DNA from: Ornithinibacter aureus
GTDB lineage: Bacteria > Actinomycetota > Actinomycetes > Actinomycetales > Dermatophilaceae
Assembly (NCBI RefSeq): GCF_009858245.1
Contig: NZ_VMSB01000001.1
Coordinates: 2,919,623-2,983,622 of the forward strand
Direction of reading: 5' to 3'
DNA length: 64,000 nucleotides
Positions within the stretch are counted from its first letter, which is position 1, and each line of letters opens with the position of its first letter. Made by a program: the position numbers and the translations under genes. This document shows positions 1 to 63,789 of the stretch, in pieces. The notes below the pieces were generated by a model. It made no database searches. It worked only from the letters and a program-made list of their open reading frames with translations, and had not been told where the DNA came from.

Positions 1-3000
1 AACGAGCACGGCGAGATCTCGGTGACCCAGGTGAAGCGCCAGAACAACATCACCGATCACTGGACGATCGCAGCCCTCCGAGGTCGCGGAGTCCTAGCGG
101 CAGCTGCTCGCCACGTTGCCGCTGGGCGTAATTTCCACTTCAGTTCTATGACTCCGAGCGGGGCGCTTCGCGTCTTGGCTGCCCTGTCACGGCAATCGGC
201 GGACGAACAACAGTTCGTTGCTCATCTGCTCACGCGCGAGTTGAGGCCAACCTTCGATGAGCTAACCGCGGCGAATGTCTTCGGAGGCTCTGAGTCTGCC
301 TGGCAGACCCTGCGCGGTATGTGGATCGAGATTGAAGTTGAAGAGCAGTTGGTCATGACCAACGCCATGCTCGCCGAAGTTAGCTTGGAGGGAGCGACTG
401 GCGAACTCGTGGCAATTGCTATAGGTGCAGTGCTGCTCGACAACCTGCGCACGCGTATGACGCGACGCGAGTTGCTCGACGCTCTCGCTCGCGACGGCAT
501 CAAACCGCGCGACTCCCTGGCACGGCGAACGTCTCATGAGCAGGTGGTCGCTACGACCCAGAGCTGGCGCGGCACGATCGAGCGCGAACTGCTCTCGCCG
601 TCGATCGAAAGGCAGGAGGCTGCAGACCTCGTCGACCTCATGGCTACGACCCGCCTTGCCCTTGTCGTTGGGGCTGGCGGTGGTGGAAAGAGTTCGGTTC
701 TCTACCAGGCGGCGGGCGAGTTCGAGGCACAGGGCGCTGAGGTGCTGGCCTTCCGACTCGACCGTCGTGGCGCCTTCAGTTCGACCATCGAACTGGGCAT
801 CCAGCTTGGCCTCCCAACCTCGCCGGTCGCGGCGCTGCGACTGGCGGCAGACGGCCGCGAAGCCTTCCTGATCATCGACCAACTCGACGCCGTGTCGCTA
901 GCTTCCGGGCGCCTCTCGGAGCGCTACGACGTCATTGCCGATCTCATTCAAGAAGCGACGGCGGTTGACGGGGTGTACGTAATCTTGGCCTGCCGACTGT
1001 TCGACGTCGAGAACGATCATCGCATCCGCAAACTTGATGCGCGAAACGATGTCGAGCGACTGACCGTGGAGCCGCTACCTGTTGAATCAGTGGCGGACGC
1101 TGTATCAGCCATGGGTCTCGATCCGGACTTGCTCACTGCTCCGCAACGAGCATTGCTCAGGTCACCGCTCAACCTCGTCCTACTGGAGACGATCGCGAGC
1201 CAGCCAGGTGCCCTGAACTTCACTTCCCGAGGCTCCCTCTTCGAAGCCTTCTGGCAGCGCAAAGAACAGACCTCTGAGGAGCGACGCCCCGGTACGTTGT
1301 TCAACGACGTGTTGGCCCGTATCGCCAACACTGCGAGCGACAACCAGACGTTGTCCGTCCCCGTCGAGATCCTCGGTCCTGGCGACTTCACTAAACATGC
1401 GCGTGTCCTTGCTTCCGAGCAGGTCATCGCGATCGAGGACGACCGGGTCTCCTTTTTCCACGAGACGTTCTTCGACTTCACATTCGCCCGCCAGTGGCTG
1501 TCACGACAGCAGTCGATGGTCGAATTCCTCAGTGCTCAGGAGCAGGAACTATTCCGGCGCGCGCAGGTACGGCAGATCCTTGAGCTTCTCCGTGAGCGGG
1601 ATCCGGATCGGTTCCGCTCGGAGATCGAGGCGGTCCTAAGCAGCGCAGATGTTCGGTTTCACATCAAGGAGACGGTGGTCGCCGTCTTCGCGAACGTCAG
1701 TGATGCGAAGCTCGAGGATGTCGAACTTGTGCTGCACCTTGCCGAGACGGAATCCACGCTCACGAAACAGCTGTGGCTGCAGCTCGCACGCCCTACCTGG
1801 TTCGGAGCGTTCTACGCTCATGGCGACCTGGAAGGGTGGCTCGACAGCGAAGACGCCGCACTACGCGATCGGTGCGTCAACTGGATGGGCAACGCTGGCG
1901 CCAAGTATGGCGCTGAGGTGGCTGGCCTCTTGACGGCGCGGAACCAGTCACCCGACTACGTGACGTGGCTCCGTTGGGTGACGCAGCGCGTCGACCTGCA
2001 CCACCACCGGCGGCTGTTCGAGCTGTTGCTAGATGCGATCCGTGCCGGCGAGATCAACCCAGCCGATCGGAACGTCTGGCTCTCGGCACACGAACTTGCG
2101 GAACACCAGCCACTCTGGGCAATCGAGATGCTCAAGGCCTGCTTTGTCGAGAGTCCGTCCGCTCTGGTGCTCGGTAGCGATGGCAAAGTAGCCCTTCTCG
2201 GCATTCATGAGTACGGCGCCACTCAGATGATCGAGGCAGCGTGCAAAGCCGAGCCGCGAGCGTTCGCCGAGGCGTTCGTGCCACATCTGCTGGCAGTCAT
2301 GGACGCGACGCACTACGACCGCCACGAGCAGGATCTTCTTCGTGACCGGCACTTCAGCCTGAGGCTTCGAATTGAGCCAAGGCACTCCGACGTCGATGAC
2401 GCGATGTACGACGGCGCGGCGGACGCTCTCGGAAAATGGGCACAGACGTCGCCGGAATCCATCGAGTCGATGTTGCAACTCCTGGCCGATAACGAACACG
2501 AAGCGGCGCAGTCGTTGTTGTATCGCGCCTTGATTGCTGGGGCCGTGACCTTTGCTCCGTGGGCAGCTGAACTGATTCTCCAAGGCGGCAACCGCCTGAA
2601 AGCGGGCTACCTATCCGACTCGCACTGGCTTTCGCGCGAGGTCGTCGAGGCTATCGCACCGATTGTCAGCGATGAGGTCCACCTGCAACTCGAAGAGCTC
2701 TTTCGCGACCTTCCCGCGACATACCAATCTTCCGACCTCCACCATAGGCTTCGGTCGTTCGGCTACACCGCCTTCAAGTTCCTCTCAGCGCTCGATGCCG
2801 GGCGGTTAACACCGTTGGGAGTTCGACGGCTACAGGAGTACCAACGCAAGTTCGACCGCGATTTGCCTGAGCCACCAACCGGCATCATCACCTACACGGT
2901 CGGGTCGCCGATTGGTGGCCCAGCCACAAGCAAGATGAGCAACGCGCAGTGGCTGCAGGCCATGGCAAAACACGACAACGACGACCGCGACTTCGGCAGC

Positions 3001-4314
3001 GAGGTAGGCGGTGCTCGCGAGTTGGCGCAGCAGCTAAAGGCGCGAACGGCCGAGGATCCGCTCAGGTTCGCTGTATTGGCCATGGAGTTGACGCCCGAGA
3101 CCAACGAGGTCTATCCCGGCGCGATCTTGGGGGGCTTCGGAGAAGCGTCTATCCCGGAGGAAGCGCAGCACGCCGTCTTCGACGCCATCCGTCATGTCAT
3201 GAGCCTCGGCCTCGACGACTGTGACCGCTGGCTTGGCTGGGCGGTCCGTCACGTCTCTGACGAGGCACCTTTGGACATCGTTGAGCTGGTCCTCGACCGG
3301 GCGCTGCACGCTCCTGACCCTGTCGACAACTTGCCTGTCTTCCAACGCCGAGACGACCACCAACCCGGACGTGACTTGTTCCAGAACGGCTACAACACCT
3401 CGCGAGGGAGCTTGGCCGAGTCGCTCGGCGATCTCCTGGTCCATGATCCTGATGGAATGCGCACGGAACTCGTGGCACCGCATCTCGTGGAGCTGGCGAG
3501 CGATCCGGTACTTAGTGTCCGCGCGTGCGTTGCCCACACCGTCGCTGCCTGCCTACGGCATGCACGGCCAAGGGCATACGCGGCCTTCGAACGCCTCATC
3601 GACGCCGACGATCTCCTGCTTGCCTCGGATAGGTTGGATGACCTGATGATGTACATCGGCAACGCCGATCCAGAAGTAGTCGATCCGGTTATCGATCGCA
3701 TGCTCAGCTCGACAGATGCCGAGGTTCGGAGGGCAGGGGGTCGGATGGCGGCTTTCGCCGCGCTGCAATGGGGGCGTTCAGCCCTAATGGACCGCGCCGT
3801 GACCAGCGATGTTCAAGTTCGAGGCGGTCTGGCTGAGGTCTGCGCCGCGAGAGTCGATCGATCCGCTGATTCAGAACTCGTGCTCTCGACTCTGCGCCGC
3901 CTGATGCATGACGAGGACGATGAGGTTCGGAAGAAAGTTGGCACTCTGGCCGGTCACCTGCGTGGAGCCGACCTGCGCCCTTACGCCGAGTTCTTGGCCG
4001 ACTTGATCGAGTCACCAAGCTACGTGCACGCGACCCCGCAACTGCTCATCACGCTGCAGGAAGCGCCCGGCAAGGTCGACGATCTCGTGGACCTTGCCGC
4101 ACACCGCTTTCTGAACGTCCATGGTGAAGACGTGGCCGACATCAGGACTGGTGCTGCGGGGGATGCTCACTACATCTCGGATCTGGTGGTCCGTGGGTTG
4201 GCGCAGACTCGCGACCGAGGGCGCATCACGGCGCTACTTGACATCCTTGATCGCCTGCTCGAACTCGGCGTCTACGGAGTCGATCGAGCAATCGAAGGGG
4301 CCGTGCGCGACTAG
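1..4314 (+). CDS. STAND-type ATPase with nuclease-like N terminus, probable antiviral defence protein (5' end outside window)
   Basis: The reading frame is open from base 1 to a TAG at 4312-4314, so the true start lies upstream; the GTG at 22 is only the first in-window start codon. The first residues (SVTQVKRQNN) followed by W-T..L..RGVL and an F-H-F-S-S strand resemble the Q/E-x-K half of a PD-(D/E)xK nuclease fold of the DUF4297/Cap4 kind; the catalytic Asp would be upstream. A P-loop GAGGGGKSS is encoded near 670-696 and a Walker B-like FLIIDQLD near 865-888. The remaining 900-odd residues are helical and HEAT-like, with no catalytic motif I recognise, and would suit target sensing. This nuclease-NTPase-repeat layout is that of Avs-like STAND proteins, which cut DNA after sensing phage proteins. 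The function is inferred from architecture only. Confidence 0.72.
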   Translation, partial: NEHGEISVTQVKRQNNITDHWTIAALRGRGVLAAAARHVAAGRNFHFSSMTPSGALRVLAALSRQSADEQQFVAHLLTRELRPTFDELTAANVFGGSESAWQTLRGMWIEIEVEEQLVMTNAMLAEVSLEGATGELVAIAIGAVLLDNLRTRMTRRELLDALARDGIKPRDSLARRTSHEQVVATTQSWRGTIERELLSPSIERQEAADLVDLMATTRLALVVGAGGGGKSSVLYQAAGEFEAQGAEVLAFRLDRRGAFSSTIELGIQLGLPTSPVAALRLAADGREAFLIIDQLDAVSLASGRLSERYDVIADLIQEATAVDGVYVILACRLFDVENDHRIRKLDARNDVERLTVEPLPVESVADAVSAMGLDPDLLTAPQRALLRSPLNLVLLETIASQPGALNFTSRGSLFEAFWQRKEQTSEERRPGTLFNDVLARIANTASDNQTLSVPVEILGPGDFTKHARVLASEQVIAIEDDRVSFFHETFFDFTFARQWLSRQQSMVEFLSAQEQELFRRAQVRQILELLRERDPDRFRSEIEAVLSSADVRFHIKETVVAVFANVSDAKLEDVELVLHLAETESTLTKQLWLQLARPTWFGAFYAHGDLEGWLDSEDAALRDRCVNWMGNAGAKYGAEVAGLLTARNQSPDYVTWLRWVTQRVDLHHHRRLFELLLDAIRAGEINPADRNVWLSAHELAEHQPLWAIEMLKACFVESPSALVLGSDGKVALLGIHEYGATQMIEAACKAEPRAFAEAFVPHLLAVMDATHYDRHEQDLLRDRHFSLRLRIEPRHSDVDDAMYDGAADALGKWAQTSPESIESMLQLLADNEHEAAQSLLYRALIAGAVTFAPWAAELILQGGNRLKAGYLSDSHWLSREVVEAIAPIVSDEVHLQLEELFRDLPATYQSSDLHHRLRSFGYTAFKFLSALDAGRLTPLGVRRLQEYQRKFDRDLPEPPTGIITYTVGSPIGGPATSKMSNAQWLQAMAKHDNDDRDFGSEVGGARELAQQLKARTAEDPLRFAVLAMELTPETNEVYPGAILGGFGEASIPEEAQHAVFDAIRHVMSLGLDDCDRWLGWAVRHVSDEAPLDIVELVLDRALHAPDPVDNLPVFQRRDDHQPGRDLFQNGYNTSRGSLAESLGDLLVHDPDGMRTELVAPHLVELASDPVLSVRACVAHTVAACLRHARPRAYAAFERLIDADDLLLASDRLDDLMMYIGNADPEVVDPVIDRMLSSTDAEVRRAGGRMAAFAALQWGRSALMDRAVTSDVQVRGGLAEVCAARVDRSADSELVLSTLRRLMHDEDDEVRKKVGTLAGHLRGADLRPYAEFLADLIESPSYVHATPQLLITLQEAPGKVDDLVDLAAHRFLNVHGEDVADIRTGAAGDAHYISDLVVRGLAQTRDRGRITALLDILDRLLELGVYGVDRAIEGAVRD

Positions 4315-4546: not shown

Positions 4547-4730
4547 CCTTCCGCCTGGGGTGCGGGGTCGTCATGATTACTCTCATGCTGAGTTCGGCAG
4601 AGCTGCTCGATGGTTTCGCCACGTGGTGGACCACCGACAGAGGTATCAGCATCGCCGGAGGCGTAGCTACGCTGATCGGCTTGATGATCGCTGTGTGGCA
4701 GCTGCTCAGGACCCGTCGGGCGGCCGAGGC
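4547..4730. repeat. Left copy of 184-bp direct repeat flanking IS element
   Basis: This stretch recurs at 6428-6611 with one mismatch (G at 4643, T at 6524). The copies lie directly outside the two ends of the IS1549-like element, so they are best read as an unusually long target-site duplication. Confidence 0.9.
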
Positions 4731-4749
4731 CCTGACTCGTGCCACTTGA
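4573..4749 (+). pseudogene. Duplicated 5' end of a small membrane-protein gene, running into the IS
   Basis: ATG at 4573 opens a 58-codon frame with one hydrophobic helix (ISIAGGVATLIGLMIAVWQ) followed by R-T-R-R-A-A-E-A. The last few codons and the stop come from the left end of the IS element. The same gene start is present at 6454, because the target duplication copied it. This copy is therefore a by-product of transposition; it could still be translated into a one-helix membrane peptide. Confidence 0.7.
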
Positions 4750-6427
4750 GGGTTGATCGTCGATTCTGTTGGTGTTTGTGCTGGTCAGGGGCGTGGGCGG
4801 GAGCGATTTGACGTACCCCGGGGTGGGTAGGGTCGGCTGTGTGGTGTTCATCCGGAAGTCGGCTGGCCGTTCTGGCGCCACGAAGGTGCAGATCGCCGAG
4901 CGTCGCGGCGGGCGGAACCACATCGTCGAGCATGTCGGGACGGCTCGCTCGGAGGTTGAGTTGGCTGTGCTGATGGCCGAGGCGAACCGGCGGTTGCGCC
5001 CTGGGCAGGAGGTGCTCGACCTGGGGATCGATGACGAGCCCGTGCCGGGGCGGGCTGGGGTGATCACCGGGAAGCGGTCCGCGGTGCTGTGGCAGGTCCT
5101 TACGGCCGTGTACGCGCGGTTGGGGTTCGACACCATCGGTGATGCCGCGTTCGAGCAGCTGGTGCTGGCCCGGATCGTGGAGCCGACGAGCAAGGCGGAC
5201 TCGCTGCGGGTGCTCGACGAGCTCGGGGTGGGGCACGGGTCGCTACGCACGATGTTCCGCTGCCTGAAGCGCGCTGGGGTTGAGGACTATCGATCCCAGG
5301 TCGCGTCTGCGTGCTTCGAGCACGCCTCCACCAGCGGGGACGTCTCCTTGTGCCTTTACGACGTGACCACGTTGTACTTCGAGGCCGAGCACGAGGACGA
5401 GCTGCGCAAGGTCGGCTACTCCAAGGAACGCAGGGTGGACCCGCAGATCATCGTCGGGCTGCTGGTGGACCGGGCCGGGTTCCCGTTGGAGATCGGCTGC
5501 TGGGAGGGCAACAAGGCCGAGACGGCGACGATGCTCCCGATCATCCGCCAGTTCCAGGCCCGGCACAGCATCGAGGCCATGGTCGTGGTCGCCGACGCGG
5601 GGATGCTGTCCGCGGGCAACCTCAAAGACCTGCACGAGGCCGGGCTGCGGTTCATCGTCGGCTCCAGGGTCACCAAGGCCCCGGCCGACCTGGCCTCGCA
5701 CTTTCGCTGGCACGGCGACGCATTCACCGACGGGCAGGTCATCGACACCATCACCCCGCGGGTGGCCACCACCACCGCACGCGGCGTCAACGACGAGAAG
5801 AAGCGGGCGGAGCCGGTGTGGGACCCGGGCGTGCACGAGCGGTCGTGGCGAGCGGTGTGGGCGTACTCGGCCAAACGCGCCGCCAGGGACGCCAAGACGT
5901 TGACGTTGCAGGAGAACCGGGCCAAGGCTGTGATCGCCGGGGAGAAGGCTGCCCGCACGCCGAGGTTCGTGACGGTCAAGAACGGCTCACGCAGCTTGGA
6001 CGAGACCTCGCTGGCGCGGGCGCGTCGCGTGGTCGGGCTCAAGGGGTACGTCACGAACATCCCCGCGACGCTGATGCCCGCCGGTGAAGTCATCGCCAGC
6101 TACCACGAGCTGTGGCACGTCGAAGCGTCGTTCCGGATGAGCAAGAGCGACCTGCGAGCCCGGCCGATCTTCCACCACACCCGCGACGCGATCGAGGCCC
6201 ACCTCACGATCGTGTTCGCCGCGTTGGCCGTCGCCCGCTACCTGCAAGACGCCACCGGGATGAGCATCAAGAAGATCGTCAACACGCTGCGACCGCTGCA
6301 ACAAGTCACCGTCCGCATCGCCGGCCACGAACACCTCGCCCACGACCCGCTCACCCCCGCCGCGGAATCGATCCTCGACGCCCTCGACCTCAGCGCTCAG
6401 TGACGTACCCCGGTGGCACGAGTCGGG
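4731..6427 (+). mobile_element. IS1634/IS1549-like insertion sequence, copy 1
   Basis: The element is 1,697 bp. Its left end reads CCTGACTCGTGCCAC and its right end, read inwards, CCCGACTCGTGCCAC, giving 15-bp inverted repeats with one mismatch. It carries a single transposase gene. The flanks are a 184-bp direct repeat. Long, variable target duplications are a known property of IS1549 (Mycobacterium) and IS1634 (Mycoplasma), which agrees with the transposase family. Confidence 0.9.
4841..6403 (+). CDS. IS1634-family (IS4-like DDE) transposase, copy 1
   Basis: It catalyses cut-and-paste movement of the surrounding IS. The open frame reaches back to 4769, but the family usually begins with an xxIRK...VQIAE stretch, so GTG at 4841 is chosen (about 520 aa); GTG 4844 is equally possible. 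The first catalytic Asp is in LCLYDVTTLYFEAE, the second in VVVADAGMLSAGNL, and the C-terminal signature is SYHELWHVEASFRMSKSDL, which holds the Y...E-x6-K pattern of IS4-like enzymes. No frameshift is visible and the ends are intact, so this copy may be active. It differs from copy 2 (11261-12832) mainly in the N-terminal 150 residues. Confidence 0.93.
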   Translation: MVFIRKSAGRSGATKVQIAERRGGRNHIVEHVGTARSEVELAVLMAEANRRLRPGQEVLDLGIDDEPVPGRAGVITGKRSAVLWQVLTAVYARLGFDTIGDAAFEQLVLARIVEPTSKADSLRVLDELGVGHGSLRTMFRCLKRAGVEDYRSQVASACFEHASTSGDVSLCLYDVTTLYFEAEHEDELRKVGYSKERRVDPQIIVGLLVDRAGFPLEIGCWEGNKAETATMLPIIRQFQARHSIEAMVVVADAGMLSAGNLKDLHEAGLRFIVGSRVTKAPADLASHFRWHGDAFTDGQVIDTITPRVATTTARGVNDEKKRAEPVWDPGVHERSWRAVWAYSAKRAARDAKTLTLQENRAKAVIAGEKAARTPRFVTVKNGSRSLDETSLARARRVVGLKGYVTNIPATLMPAGEVIASYHELWHVEASFRMSKSDLRARPIFHHTRDAIEAHLTIVFAALAVARYLQDATGMSIKKIVNTLRPLQQVTVRIAGHEHLAHDPLTPAAESILDALDLSAQ

Positions 6428-6611
6428 CCTTCCGCCTGGGGTGCGGGGTCGTCATGATTACTCTCATGCTGAGTTCGGCAGAGCTGCTCGATGGTTTCGC
6501 CACGTGGTGGACCACCGACAGAGTTATCAGCATCGCCGGAGGCGTAGCTACGCTGATCGGCTTGATGATCGCTGTGTGGCAGCTGCTCAGGACCCGTCGG
6601 GCGGCCGAGGC
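6428..6611. repeat. Right copy of 184-bp direct repeat flanking IS element
   Basis: This copy is 183/184 identical to 4547-4730. It contains the ATG at 6454 and the membrane helix of the disrupted small gene, so the insertion duplicated the start of its target instead of only interrupting it. Confidence 0.9.
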
Positions 6612-6696: not shown

Positions 6697-8294
6697 GCTG
6701 ATTTCGCTTTGGGCCGCGGCTCCGGCTTGAGGGCGTGGCTGTTGTCCTGACCTGGCTGTCAGGGTGTTCCACGTCGGTTGTTCGGTCGGGCCGGGGCGGC
6801 TGGGTGGTCAGGGATTGACCGGTTCTGGTGGGCCGCAGTTCTGGGTGAACAGGCGGGTCCACGCTTCCTGCCAGGGCCAGGCGGTCGGTAGGTGCAGGGT
6901 GACCCGTCGGGCCGAGGACGCCACCCGGGCGGGGACGGTGATCAGCTTGCGGCGGATGGTGGCGGTGGTGGCTCTGGCGAGGTCGGCGCTGGCGATGGTG
7001 GCTGCGGTGCGGGTGAGGTTGAACGCGATGACGGCCAGCACGAGCCAGGCGGCGTTGGCGGTGAACTTGCCTGAGGGCAGGTGCGCCAGGGCGGAGTTCT
7101 TGAGGTCGGCGTGGACCTGCTCGATGATCGCGTGTCCGCGGTGGGTCTTATCCGCGGCGACGGTGTCCAGGTCGGTGGGGTCGGTGGTGGTGAAGAAGGC
7201 GTGGAAGCGCCAGGTGTCGAACAGGGTGCCCTGCCCGGTTGCCTTCTTCTTCTCGGCGTTGACGTCGGGGATGCGGCGCACCACCAGGCGCCCGGGAACC
7301 TGATCGGCCGCCTTCTTGGAGGAGAACGCGGTGAAGGGCACCTCGGCGACCTCAGCCCGCGACACCCAGGTGCCGCTGACCTCGTCGAAGACGGCGTCGG
7401 TGTACTCGATCGGGGTCCACGCGTGTTCGCTGATGGTGGTGATCGCGGCCTTGACCTTGGGGTCCAGGCGTACGGTGACCGACACCTGCGCCCCGGCGCG
7501 AACCGCGGCACCGACGGTGGGCGCCCCGTAGAACGCCGAGTCCGCCCGCAGCAACGGCTTGCCCTGACCGGGGTGCAACGTGCGCACGGTCTTGAGCGCG
7601 TCAGCGACCAACCGTTTGGCTCCGCGCGGGGACCCGCACGACCCTTTCCGCAGCCGCTGCGCCACGACCACCGGTGCCGACCCAGTGGTGGTGACCGTGG
7701 CCAGCAACGCGTTCAGCCCGCGGACCCCGGAGTAGCCGAACCCGGCACCCTGTTTGGCGTGGCCGTGCACCTGAATGATCGTGTCGTCGATATCGACCAA
7801 CACCCGGCCACCGGTGCCGTCGCCGACGACCTGCGCGGCTCGCTCGCCTTGAGCTGCCAGGCGTGTGAGGAACCTCGAGGCGAGCGCGTCGAGCTGGCGG
7901 ACGTGACCGAACGTGAACGAGCGCAGGAACGACCCCAACGTCGACGGCGCGTACGCCCGGGCGAAGACCCGGCCCATCCCACCGTGCCGCAGCAGCGCCA
8001 TGTCATCGATGCTGTCGGCGCCAGCGACCATCCCCGCGACCAGCGAGGCGACCTTCAACCCGGCGTTGGCGCCCTTGTCACCCGGCACGCTCAGATGCTC
8101 ATCCGCAAGGCGTCGCAGCCCCGCCCGATCAGCCAGGGCCAAGACCGGAACCAACCCGGCGGCCGACACAAGATTCGGGTCGTCGAAGACCGCCGAGGTC
8201 GCTGGGAGGGTGTGAGAGAGTTTCACCTACGAGATGCCCCTTGCGTGTGTGACGAACTGAAGCGTGAAGAACTCCAATTCTGTTGCCACACAGG
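6683..8294 (-). mobile_element. IS1380-like insertion sequence (ends approximate)
   Basis: The element is defined by the transposase at 6808-8226. Candidate ends are CCTGGGTGG at 6683 and, read inwards from 8294, CCTGTGTGG; they match at 8 of 9 positions, but no target duplication is evident. The outer limits may therefore be off by tens of bases. Confidence 0.55.
6808..8226 (-). CDS. IS1380-family DDE transposase
   Basis: A complete 472-residue transposase. The N-terminal region has the family pattern of a helical domain with GDSIDD-like sequence (GADSIDDMALLRHGG). The catalytic core shows VLVDIDDTIIQVHGHAKQG (first Asp), LLRADSAFYG (second Asp) and the C-terminal IIEQVHADLKNSALAHLPSG stretch holding the conserved Glu. 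The length is usual for the family and no frameshift is seen. It lies opposite to the genes on both sides and appears to have split the gene whose halves are at 6454 and 8296. Confidence 0.93.
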   Translation of the reverse strand: MKLSHTLPATSAVFDDPNLVSAAGLVPVLALADRAGLRRLADEHLSVPGDKGANAGLKVASLVAGMVAGADSIDDMALLRHGGMGRVFARAYAPSTLGSFLRSFTFGHVRQLDALASRFLTRLAAQGERAAQVVGDGTGGRVLVDIDDTIIQVHGHAKQGAGFGYSGVRGLNALLATVTTTGSAPVVVAQRLRKGSCGSPRGAKRLVADALKTVRTLHPGQGKPLLRADSAFYGAPTVGAAVRAGAQVSVTVRLDPKVKAAITTISEHAWTPIEYTDAVFDEVSGTWVSRAEVAEVPFTAFSSKKAADQVPGRLVVRRIPDVNAEKKKATGQGTLFDTWRFHAFFTTTDPTDLDTVAADKTHRGHAIIEQVHADLKNSALAHLPSGKFTANAAWLVLAVIAFNLTRTAATIASADLARATTATIRRKLITVPARVASSARRVTLHLPTAWPWQEAWTRLFTQNCGPPEPVNP

Positions 8295-11127: not shown

Positions 11128-11150
11128 GGGTAGGAACATCGGCCGTTCGG
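11128..11150. repeat. 23-bp direct repeat, left of IS copy 2
   Basis: GGGTAGGAACATCGG then CCGTTCGG lies immediately left of the element and is repeated exactly at 12888-12910. It is the target-site duplication of this copy and is much longer than is normal for IS elements. Confidence 0.9.
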
Positions 11151-11260
11151 CCCGACTCGTGCCACTTGACGGATAGGGCGCGACGCTAGCGGCAAAGGTG
11201 CTGGTCAGGGCCTCGGTCGTGGTCGGGATGACACACCCCGGGGTCGGTAGTGTCGGGCTC

Positions 11261-12832
11261 GTGGTGTTCGTGCGGAAGTCCCCGGGTCGCACTGGGAGCA
11301 CCAAGGTTCAAATCGCGGAGCGTCGTGCCGGCCGGGATGTCGTCCTTGAGCACGTGGGCACGGCCCGCAGCGAGGGCGAGTTGGCGGTGCTGATGGCTGA
11401 GGCCCGTCGACGACTGCGGCCCGGGCAGGAAGCGTTCGACCTGGACGGGGTGGGCCTGGAGCAGGAAGGCCTGCCGCAGCGGCCCGGAGTGATCACGGGC
11501 AAGCGGTCCGTGGTGCTCTGGCAGGTCCTGTCGAGCGTGTACGCGCGGCTGGGGTTCGACGTGGTGGGCGACGAGGCGTTCAAGCAGCTGGTGCTCGCCC
11601 GTATCGTGGAGCCCACGAGCAAGGCCGACTCGCTGCGGGTGCTCGACGAGCTCGGGGTGGTGCACGGGTCGCTGCGCACGATGTTCCGCTCCCTGGCCCG
11701 CGCCCAGGAGCGCGGCTACCGCGACACGGTCGCGTCCGCGTGCTTCGCCCACGCCTCCACCAGCGGGGACGTCTCGCTGTGCCTGTACGACGTGACCACG
11801 TTGTACTTCGAGGCCGAACACGAGGACGAGCTGCGCAAGGTCGGCTACTCCAAGGAACGCCGCGTGGACCCGCAGATCATTGTCGGGCTGCTGGTGGACC
11901 GGGTCGGGTTCCCGTTGGAGATCGGCTGCTGGGAGGGCAACAAGGCTGAGACGACCACGATGCTCCCGATCATCCGCCAGTTCCAGGAGCGGCACAGCAT
12001 TCAGGCCATGGTCGTGGTCGCTGATGCGGGGATGCTGTCCGCGGGCAACCTCAAGGACCTGCACGAGGCGGGGCTGCGGTTCATCGTCGGCTCCCGGGCC
12101 ACCAAGGCCCCGGCTGACCTGGCCTCGCACTTTCGCTGGCACGGGGACGCGTTCACCGACGGTCAGGTCATCGACACGATCACCCCACGGGTGGCCACCA
12201 CCACCGCCCGCGGTGTCAACGACGAGCAGAAACGGGCCGAGCCGGTGTGGGACCCGGCCGTGCACGAACGCTCGTGGCGGGCGGTGTGGTCGTACTCGGC
12301 CAAACGCGCCGCCAGGGACGCCAAGACCCTGACCCTGCAGGAGAACCGCGCCAAAGCCGTGATCGCCGGGGAGAAGGCCGCCCGCACCCCGCGGTTCGTG
12401 ACCGTCAAGAACGGCTCACGCAGCCTGGACGAGACCTCACTGGCCAGAGCGCGTCGCGTGGTCGGGCTCAAGGGTTACGTCACGAACATCCCCGCGACGC
12501 TGATGCCCGCCGGTGAAGTCATCGCCAGCTACCACGAGCTGTGGCACGTCGAAGCGTCGTTCCGGATGAGCAAGAGCGACCTACGCGCCCGCCCGATCTT
12601 CCACCACACCCGCGACGCGATCGAGGCCCACCTCACCATCGTGTTCGCCGCGCTGGCCGTCGCCCGCTACCTGCAGGACACCACGGGGATGAGCATCAAG
12701 AAGATCGTCAACACCCTGCGGCCGCTGCAACACGTCACCGTCCGCATCGCCGGCCATGAACACCTCGCCCACGACCCGCTCACCCCAACGGCAGAAACGA
12801 TCCTCGACGCACTCGACCTCCGCGCTCAGTGA
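11261..12832 (+). CDS. IS1634-family transposase, copy 2
   Basis: It catalyses movement of the enclosing IS. GTG 11261 is chosen by analogy with copy 1; the open frame reaches back to 11198. The protein is about 523 aa with the same catalytic stretches as copy 1 (LCLYDVTTLYFEAE, VVVADAGMLSAGNL, YHELWHVEASFRMSKSDL). The C-terminal two thirds are almost identical to copy 1, whereas the region around residues 60-150 diverges and includes a short insertion (GVGLEQEGLPQRPGV). The gene is intact. Confidence 0.93.
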   Translation: MVFVRKSPGRTGSTKVQIAERRAGRDVVLEHVGTARSEGELAVLMAEARRRLRPGQEAFDLDGVGLEQEGLPQRPGVITGKRSVVLWQVLSSVYARLGFDVVGDEAFKQLVLARIVEPTSKADSLRVLDELGVVHGSLRTMFRSLARAQERGYRDTVASACFAHASTSGDVSLCLYDVTTLYFEAEHEDELRKVGYSKERRVDPQIIVGLLVDRVGFPLEIGCWEGNKAETTTMLPIIRQFQERHSIQAMVVVADAGMLSAGNLKDLHEAGLRFIVGSRATKAPADLASHFRWHGDAFTDGQVIDTITPRVATTTARGVNDEQKRAEPVWDPAVHERSWRAVWSYSAKRAARDAKTLTLQENRAKAVIAGEKAARTPRFVTVKNGSRSLDETSLARARRVVGLKGYVTNIPATLMPAGEVIASYHELWHVEASFRMSKSDLRARPIFHHTRDAIEAHLTIVFAALAVARYLQDTTGMSIKKIVNTLRPLQHVTVRIAGHEHLAHDPLTPTAETILDALDLRAQ

Positions 12833-12887
12833 CACACCCCGGTGGCACGAGTCGGGTCAGTGACACACCCCGGTGGCACGAGTCGGG
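12826..12887. repeat. 31-bp tandem duplication of the IS right end
   Basis: Two identical 31-bp units, 12826-12856 and 12857-12887, each run from TCAGTGACAC through the inverted repeat GTGGCACGAGTCGGG. The element therefore has two usable right ends in tandem, probably from slippage or an aberrant transposition. Confidence 0.9.
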
Positions 12888-12929
12888 GGGTAGGAACATC
12901 GGCCGTTCGGGGAGGCTCGGTCGGGGCGC

Positions 12930-44632: not shown

Positions 44633-44658
44633 CCGGTTGGGCGTCCTTGCTCCGGATT

Positions 44659-44746
44659 GCTGGGCCTTGCTCCCGCCGCAGATCGCAACTCCCGATGTGC
44701 GCCCTTGCAGCAGCGCACATCGGGAGCAAGAGCGCACATCGGGAGT
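44659..44746. repeat. 88-bp double-hairpin repeat, copy A
   Basis: It is about 91% identical to 63702-63789 (8 mismatches in 88). It holds one left arm CTCCCGATGTGCG (44689-44701) and two tandem right arms CGCACATCGGGAG (44714-44726 and 44733-44745), so two alternative hairpins can form. Confidence 0.88.
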
Positions 44747-63532: not shown

Positions 63533-63701
63533 GGGAATCCCCCTCGTTCAGGGCTGCACCCGAGTGGCGCACCCGCTGCTGACGACACTAGGACGATTCG
63601 CGACACGGCCCCGAGACTTATCCACAGGGCTGGGTCGAGGGGCGTGCCCTTGCGCATCCGGGTGCGCTGCGTATCGGTGGTGGCGGGCGGCCGGCTCGAT
63701 G

Positions 63702-63789
63702 GCTGGGCCTTACTCCCGTCGCAGATCCTTACTCCCGATGTGCGTCGTTGCAGCAGCGCACATCGGGAGCAAGGGCGCACATCGGGAGT
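63702..63789. repeat. 88-bp double-hairpin repeat, copy B
   Basis: This is the partner of 44659-44746. Its arms are CTCCCGATGTGCG and two CGCACATCGGGAG. It lies in the 377-bp gap between the WXG100 gene and the DUF4031 gene, which holds no other gene. Confidence 0.88.

Follow-up and report, generated by a model that had tools for sequence, protein, structure and literature searches.

An IS1634-Family Element between Two Copies of a 184-bp Sequence

The window, by which is meant the whole stretch of 64,000 nucleotides that was analyzed, corresponds to C1:2919623-2983622 of a closed 3.70-Mb genome. In its left part lies an insertion sequence with a single open reading frame, bounded by short terminal inverted repeats and enclosed by two direct copies of a 184-bp sequence:

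4547..4730, no strand: left copy of the 184-bp target duplication (repeat scan)
4731..6427, + strand: IS1634-family insertion sequence, 1,697 bp
4731..4745, + strand: left terminal inverted repeat CCTGACTCGTGCCAC, 15 bp
4809..4821, + strand: left subterminal motif TGACGTACCCCGG
4841..6403, + strand: transposase, 520 aa, the element's single ORF; DDE by alignment D174, D252, E428; predicted Tn5-like fold
6401..6413, + strand: right subterminal motif TGACGTACCCCGG, in the same orientation as the left motif
6413..6427, - strand: right terminal inverted repeat, 15 bp, GTGGCACGAGTCGGG on the + strand
6428..6611, no strand: right 184-bp copy of the target duplication, differing at one base (repeat scan)

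In a repeat search, the two 184-bp sequences are identical at 183/184 positions (99%) with a spacing of 1,881, the sole difference being a G in the left copy and a T in the right one, and both adjoin the element exactly, touching its terminal inverted repeats. An earlier note on this DNA had described this arrangement, and its coordinates, identity, and abutment are borne out. The 184-bp sequence has no further occurrence in the closed genome; the two repeats are one target site that was duplicated on insertion of the element. The right copy holds the start of a small membrane-protein-like ORF, which is intact on that side. Within the element, the right subterminal motif shares bases with the stop codon of the transposase gene and reaches the right terminal repeat.

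The neighborhood contains several other features. An ORF at 22-4314 (+) encodes a 1,430-aa protein with weak matches to STAND NTPases, to HEAT repeats, and, in PADLOC, to the candidate-defence entry PDC-M54A (E 3e-11), and an IS1380-like transposase gene (DDE_Tnp_1_4; 6808-8226, - strand) adjoins the 184-bp repeat on the other side. Farther along the window, a pair of 92-bp repeats (44655-44746 and 63698-63789; 90% identical), each with several inverted copies of ACTCCCGATGTGCG / CGCACATCGGGAG, possibly represents a dispersed hairpin repeat.

Family Assignment and Predicted Fold of the Transposase

The element belongs to the IS1634 family, in line with the IS1634/IS1549-like identity proposed for it in the earlier note: its transposase scores 402.8 bits against the NCBIfam IS1634 model NF033559 (cutoff 100), and it scores far below the cutoffs of the IS4 and IS701 models. 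Elements of this family are 1,500-2,000 bp long with a single ORF (PMC2266710), a description that fits the 1,697 bp and the one 520-aa ORF found here. The family is further described as having a DDE triad with a long spacer before the glutamate and as usually lacking the YREK arginine (PMC2266710); correspondingly, D174, D252, and E428 are invariant in 23 aligned sequences, and the YREK region consists of Y421, L424 replacing the arginine, and K435. Of the family's end pattern, C-----YT, the sequence CCTGACTC fits C1 and Y7 but has C rather than T at position 8, and the ends of many relatives (CCTGACTT) fit the pattern fully.

A search of the PDB by transposase sequence gave no match. When a predicted structure (pLDDT 76.8) was compared by Foldseek, the best match was the Tn5 transposase 1muh (E 2e-8, TM 0.43/0.48), and all of the top five PDB matches were Tn5 transposase. 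The protein is predicted from this model to adopt a Tn5-like, RNase H-like DDE fold with an insertion before the glutamate. Tn5/IS50, a member of the IS4 family, is thus its best structural counterpart, but differs in the fixed 8-9 bp repeats of the IS50 subgroup (PMC2266710) and in its full YREK motif, of which only part is present here. A GQxxLDL-like N-terminal segment also occurs in many of the clade's transposases and in this protein comprises residues 55-61 in a low-confidence loop; Q56, L59, and L61 are invariant in the 23 sequences.

Repeat Lengths Vary within One Genome and across the Clade

Nearly all DDE transposases generate a fixed, small target duplication, as both element ends strike one target within a rigid complex. 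That IS1549 and IS1634 make long repeats of variable length has been on record since 1998-99. The genome studied here contains five more close copies of the element, 87-89% identical in DNA, and a sixth, divergent one (77%). Flanking repeats of 58 bp (L002), 5 bp (L004; TGTTA), 23 bp (L005), 32 bp (L006), and 222 bp (L007) were found, and L003 is without a flanking repeat (CCTGA versus CCTGG). With lengths of 5, 23, 32, 58, 184, and 222 bp, the same kind of element evidently makes very different duplications in one genome. L005 also lies in the window:

11128..11150, no strand: left 23-bp target repeat of the second element
11151..12856, + strand: second element copy, 87% DNA identity to the first
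12857..12887, no strand: extra tandem copy of the second element's last 31 bp, between its right end and the target duplication
12888..12910, no strand: right 23-bp target repeat of the second element

The tandem 31-bp right-end unit of this copy (12826-12887; TCAGTGACACACCCCGGTGGCACGAGTCGGG) ends exactly at the terminal base and begins at a TCAGT site, like the sites used as targets. The duplication may record the joining of a right end 31 bp inside an element end.

To extend the measurements, relatives with 46-90% transposase identity were surveyed in named genome contigs, whole genomes, and plasmids. Ends were placed by the inverted repeat, a flanking repeat was required to begin exactly at both ends, and duplicate insertions were removed, leaving 109 independent clean cases. 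The repeat is exactly 5 bp long in 22 of them, 6 bp in one, 8 bp in one, and between 11 and 1,361 bp in the remaining 85. The same scan applied to 2,160 randomly displaced end pairs returned five repeats of at least 5 bp and none of at least 11 bp. The long repeats follow a log-normal length distribution with a median of about 96 bp (Shapiro p 0.48), and 79/85 are free of mismatches, including the longest, a 1,361-bp repeat in Mycobacterium riyadhense; the five copies measured in that species are all of the long type (122, 359, 536, 608, and 1,361 bp). The length scale differs mildly among elements or hosts (permutation p 0.02). Helical phasing of the repeat length was considered and rejected, because the long repeats show no 10-11 bp periodicity. 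The expectation of the earlier note that IS1549/IS1634-like long, variable repeats would be found in another actinobacterium thus holds for the genome's own copies (5-222 bp) and for the 85 long cases of the clade, and measurement of all copies and relatives, the check suggested there, revealed variation within a genome as well as among the 109 insertions.

Length class is not clustered by lineage. Mapped onto a 99-transposase tree, the two labels (5-bp and long) require 19 changes, compared to 19.4 when shuffled, and a clade making only 5-bp repeats is not supported, the classes being scattered over the tree. The Pseudonocardia and Salinispora copies, at about 50% identity, all have 5-bp repeats. 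Five sets of identical proteins contain both 5-bp and long repeats, and near-identical, recently amplified copies comprise 35 long and 10 5-bp cases. Since near-identical elements make both classes, a long or a 5-bp repeat is the outcome of the individual event rather than a type of element, and the preponderance of long repeats among recent copies indicates that these form at or soon after insertion.

Copies without any repeat number up to about 21, which is an upper bound, versus 85 long cases. In three apparent examples (L052, L164, and L196) repeated flanks are present but displaced, and these are read as long repeats broken by indels; in four others (L003, L086, L097, and L228) 4/5 positions match, as expected for mixed 5-bp sites. 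Empty sites were sought for the copies without a repeat to reveal target deletions, and none was usable. Orientation relative to replication, judged by eye with contigs assumed to start at the origin, showed no apparent bias and is given no weight.

Empty Sites of Four Other Insertions Contain a Single Copy of the Repeated Sequence

Virtual empty sites containing one repeat copy were constructed and searched for among plasmids. For a 102-bp case on Rhodococcus pRDE01, a single-copy empty site is present in NZ_CP142145.1 (742/742 bp contiguous, 99.7%); for a 93-bp case on R. ruber plas1, one is present in NZ_CP086071.1 (contiguous over 1-722); and for a 93-bp case on pNit, one is present in the Dietzia plasmid CP155441.1 (contiguous over 4-731, 77.7% identity). 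A fourth comes from the same genome, where L006 sits inside an IS1380-like transposase gene and an intact gene copy in the window has the 32-bp sequence once:

8054..8085, - strand: single copy of the 32-bp sequence of L006, 1 mismatch; same-genome empty site in the IS1380-like transposase gene

The single-copy empty site anticipated in the earlier note is therefore found for four other insertions and not for the 184-bp locus, for which 98 related genomes yielded no empty site. An empty site already holding two tandem copies, named there as evidence to the contrary, was not encountered at any testable site.

Both Junctions of Long Repeats Resemble the 5-bp Target Site

Insertions with 5-bp repeats occur at the target TC-n-GA (C 0.90, G 0.86). 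At long repeats, both junctions, read inward from outside, conform to CG|TSNNA (S = C/G) as mirror images of each other. T at +1 is present at 38/81 and 41/81 junctions of the two ends (p 4e-9 and 5e-11) and A at +5 at 37/81 and 40/81 (p 1e-8 and 2e-10), with A at +2 at only 3/81 and 0/81. Right-end sites are predicted by a matrix trained on the left-end ones (p 5e-17), and left-end sites by one trained on the right-end ones (p 1e-20), and the site scores of long repeats are correlated neither between the two ends nor with length. Given the same mirror-image site at both junctions and the independence of the ends, it appears that the two ends use separate sites, each of them a complete site of the 5-bp type. 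The junctions of the window's element, CCTTC and GCCTC read inward, fit the consensus weakly.

Most of the elements, 66 of the 74 distinct ones, carry a paired subterminal motif of 9-14 bp. Its left copy lies about 80 bp (70-82) inside the left end and its right copy 25-31 bp inside the right end, and the two are direct, not inverted, repeats of each other. Within an element the two copies agree, but the motif sequence changes from one element to another (TGACGTACCCCGG here; TCACGCACTAA, AGGCACTAA, and GAGTGACACACTAA elsewhere). This left/right co-variation suggests that the motif is a candidate transposase binding site, and its direct orientation may render the two ends non-equivalent. A role of the motif as a length switch was rejected, as it is also present in elements with 5-bp repeats.

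Models for the Formation of Long Repeats

Of the models considered, two-site joining followed by repair synthesis accounts best for the data and is, on balance, the probable one. A Tn5-like DDE transposase would join the two element ends to opposite target strands, with the two joinings not locked to one spacing. If both ends were to act on one palindromic TCNGA site, a 5-bp repeat would result; more often, the ends would take different TSNNA sites, separated by 11 to about 1,400 bp and with a 5' stagger, and repair synthesis with strand displacement, starting at the target's two 3' ends, would copy all that lies between the nicks. We infer that the two joinings take place on a single duplex and in a single event. 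Joinings with the opposite stagger, which could be completed only after 3' flaps were removed and at the cost of a target deletion, would mostly be lost, which may explain why so few copies lack a repeat: at most about 21 versus 85 long cases is below the 1:1 ratio of random polarity, indirectly pointing to a scarcity of deletions. More generally, the ends of this DDE transposase would choose their targets independently, one enzyme producing 5-bp or 11-1,400 bp repeats by chance with only the fill-in polarity surviving, a proposition for which the case is evenly poised. Two considerations weigh against the two-site model, in that the half-site pattern would also arise from two separate 5-bp events and that the junctions of the window's own element fit the consensus weakly.

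Alternatively, a 5-bp insertion could come first and be followed by secondary local transposition, as in the hybrid element insertion of P elements and the sister chromatid transposition of Ac/Ds (PMC3744419). Once the site has been replicated, a left end from one sister copy and a right end from the other would behave as a hybrid element and insert at a nearby TSNNA site, so that the intervening segment becomes duplicated around the element. Such a process, in which the ends act apart and a segment comes to lie on both sides, would explain the complete 5-bp site at each junction and the local distances, and the 31-bp right-end tandem duplication in L005 resembles the product of such an event. 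The known examples are secondary events of eukaryotic elements from other families and come with reciprocal deletions. Such deletions would, however, be expected to be equally common, in conflict with the no-repeat copies being so much rarer than long repeats. In addition, the 35/45 long cases in near-identical copies and 5/5 in M. riyadhense would demand a secondary step after nearly every insertion, and this route is considered unlikely.

Similarly doubtful is insertion at a replication fork, where the ends would join two new sister duplexes at different points and resolution would leave a duplication. Binding to the beta sliding clamp has been shown for an Acidiphilium IS1634 transposase (PMC4549789), and the conserved N-terminal GQxxLDL segment weakly resembles a clamp-binding motif; the motif described for the family, however, lies C-terminal (PMC4549789), and fork insertion predicts deletions as numerous as duplications.

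Homologous recombination between two nearby 5-bp insertions of the same element on sister chromosomes, leaving segment-IS-segment, would also account for the complete sites observed at both junctions, but is very unlikely: for most copies it needs two insertions in the same orientation, typically within 100 bp, and intermediates carrying both insertions did not emerge as a class from the survey. Entry of the element between two pre-existing tandem 184-bp copies can practically be dismissed, as no supporting evidence was found, repeats abut exactly in 109 insertions, and all four testable insertions have single-copy empty sites.

Relation to Known Elements and Significance

The family and its long-repeat behavior were already known, and the element described here is a further case. 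Published repeats of IS1549 and IS1634 span 8-514 bp, with no mechanistic model proposed (PMC2266710, 2008 review), compared to a reach of 1,361 bp and about one-fifth of exactly 5 bp among the relatives surveyed here. IS1549 of Mycobacterium smegmatis is, by its description, alike as an actinobacterial IS1634-family element with long, variable repeats (PMC2266710). The family prototype, IS1634 of Mycoplasma mycoides subsp. mycoides SC, is likened by description as well, its long, variable repeats being given in PMC2266710 and in the title of Vilei et al. 1999 as it appears in PMC11004492, but it is a low-GC mollicute element. ISPfe2/Tn6097 of Paracoccus and ISGka5 of Geobacillus, of the same family, were observed to transpose with 6-bp repeats (PMC3281130, PMC8024623), a length near that of the 5-bp class, and no long repeats are reported in those two papers.

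To this the present analysis adds that the behavior is general in an actinobacterial clade, that the range extends to 1,361 bp, that 5-bp and long repeats come from one element, and that mirror-image half-sites and a paired subterminal motif accompany it. These points were not found described in the literature searched, which did not extend to the original IS1549 and IS1634 papers, so that priority is not certain.

The clade data narrow the mechanism to a few testable models. An insertion with long repeats can leave the target gene with one intact copy, and will be misjudged by IS-finding programs designed around short repeats.
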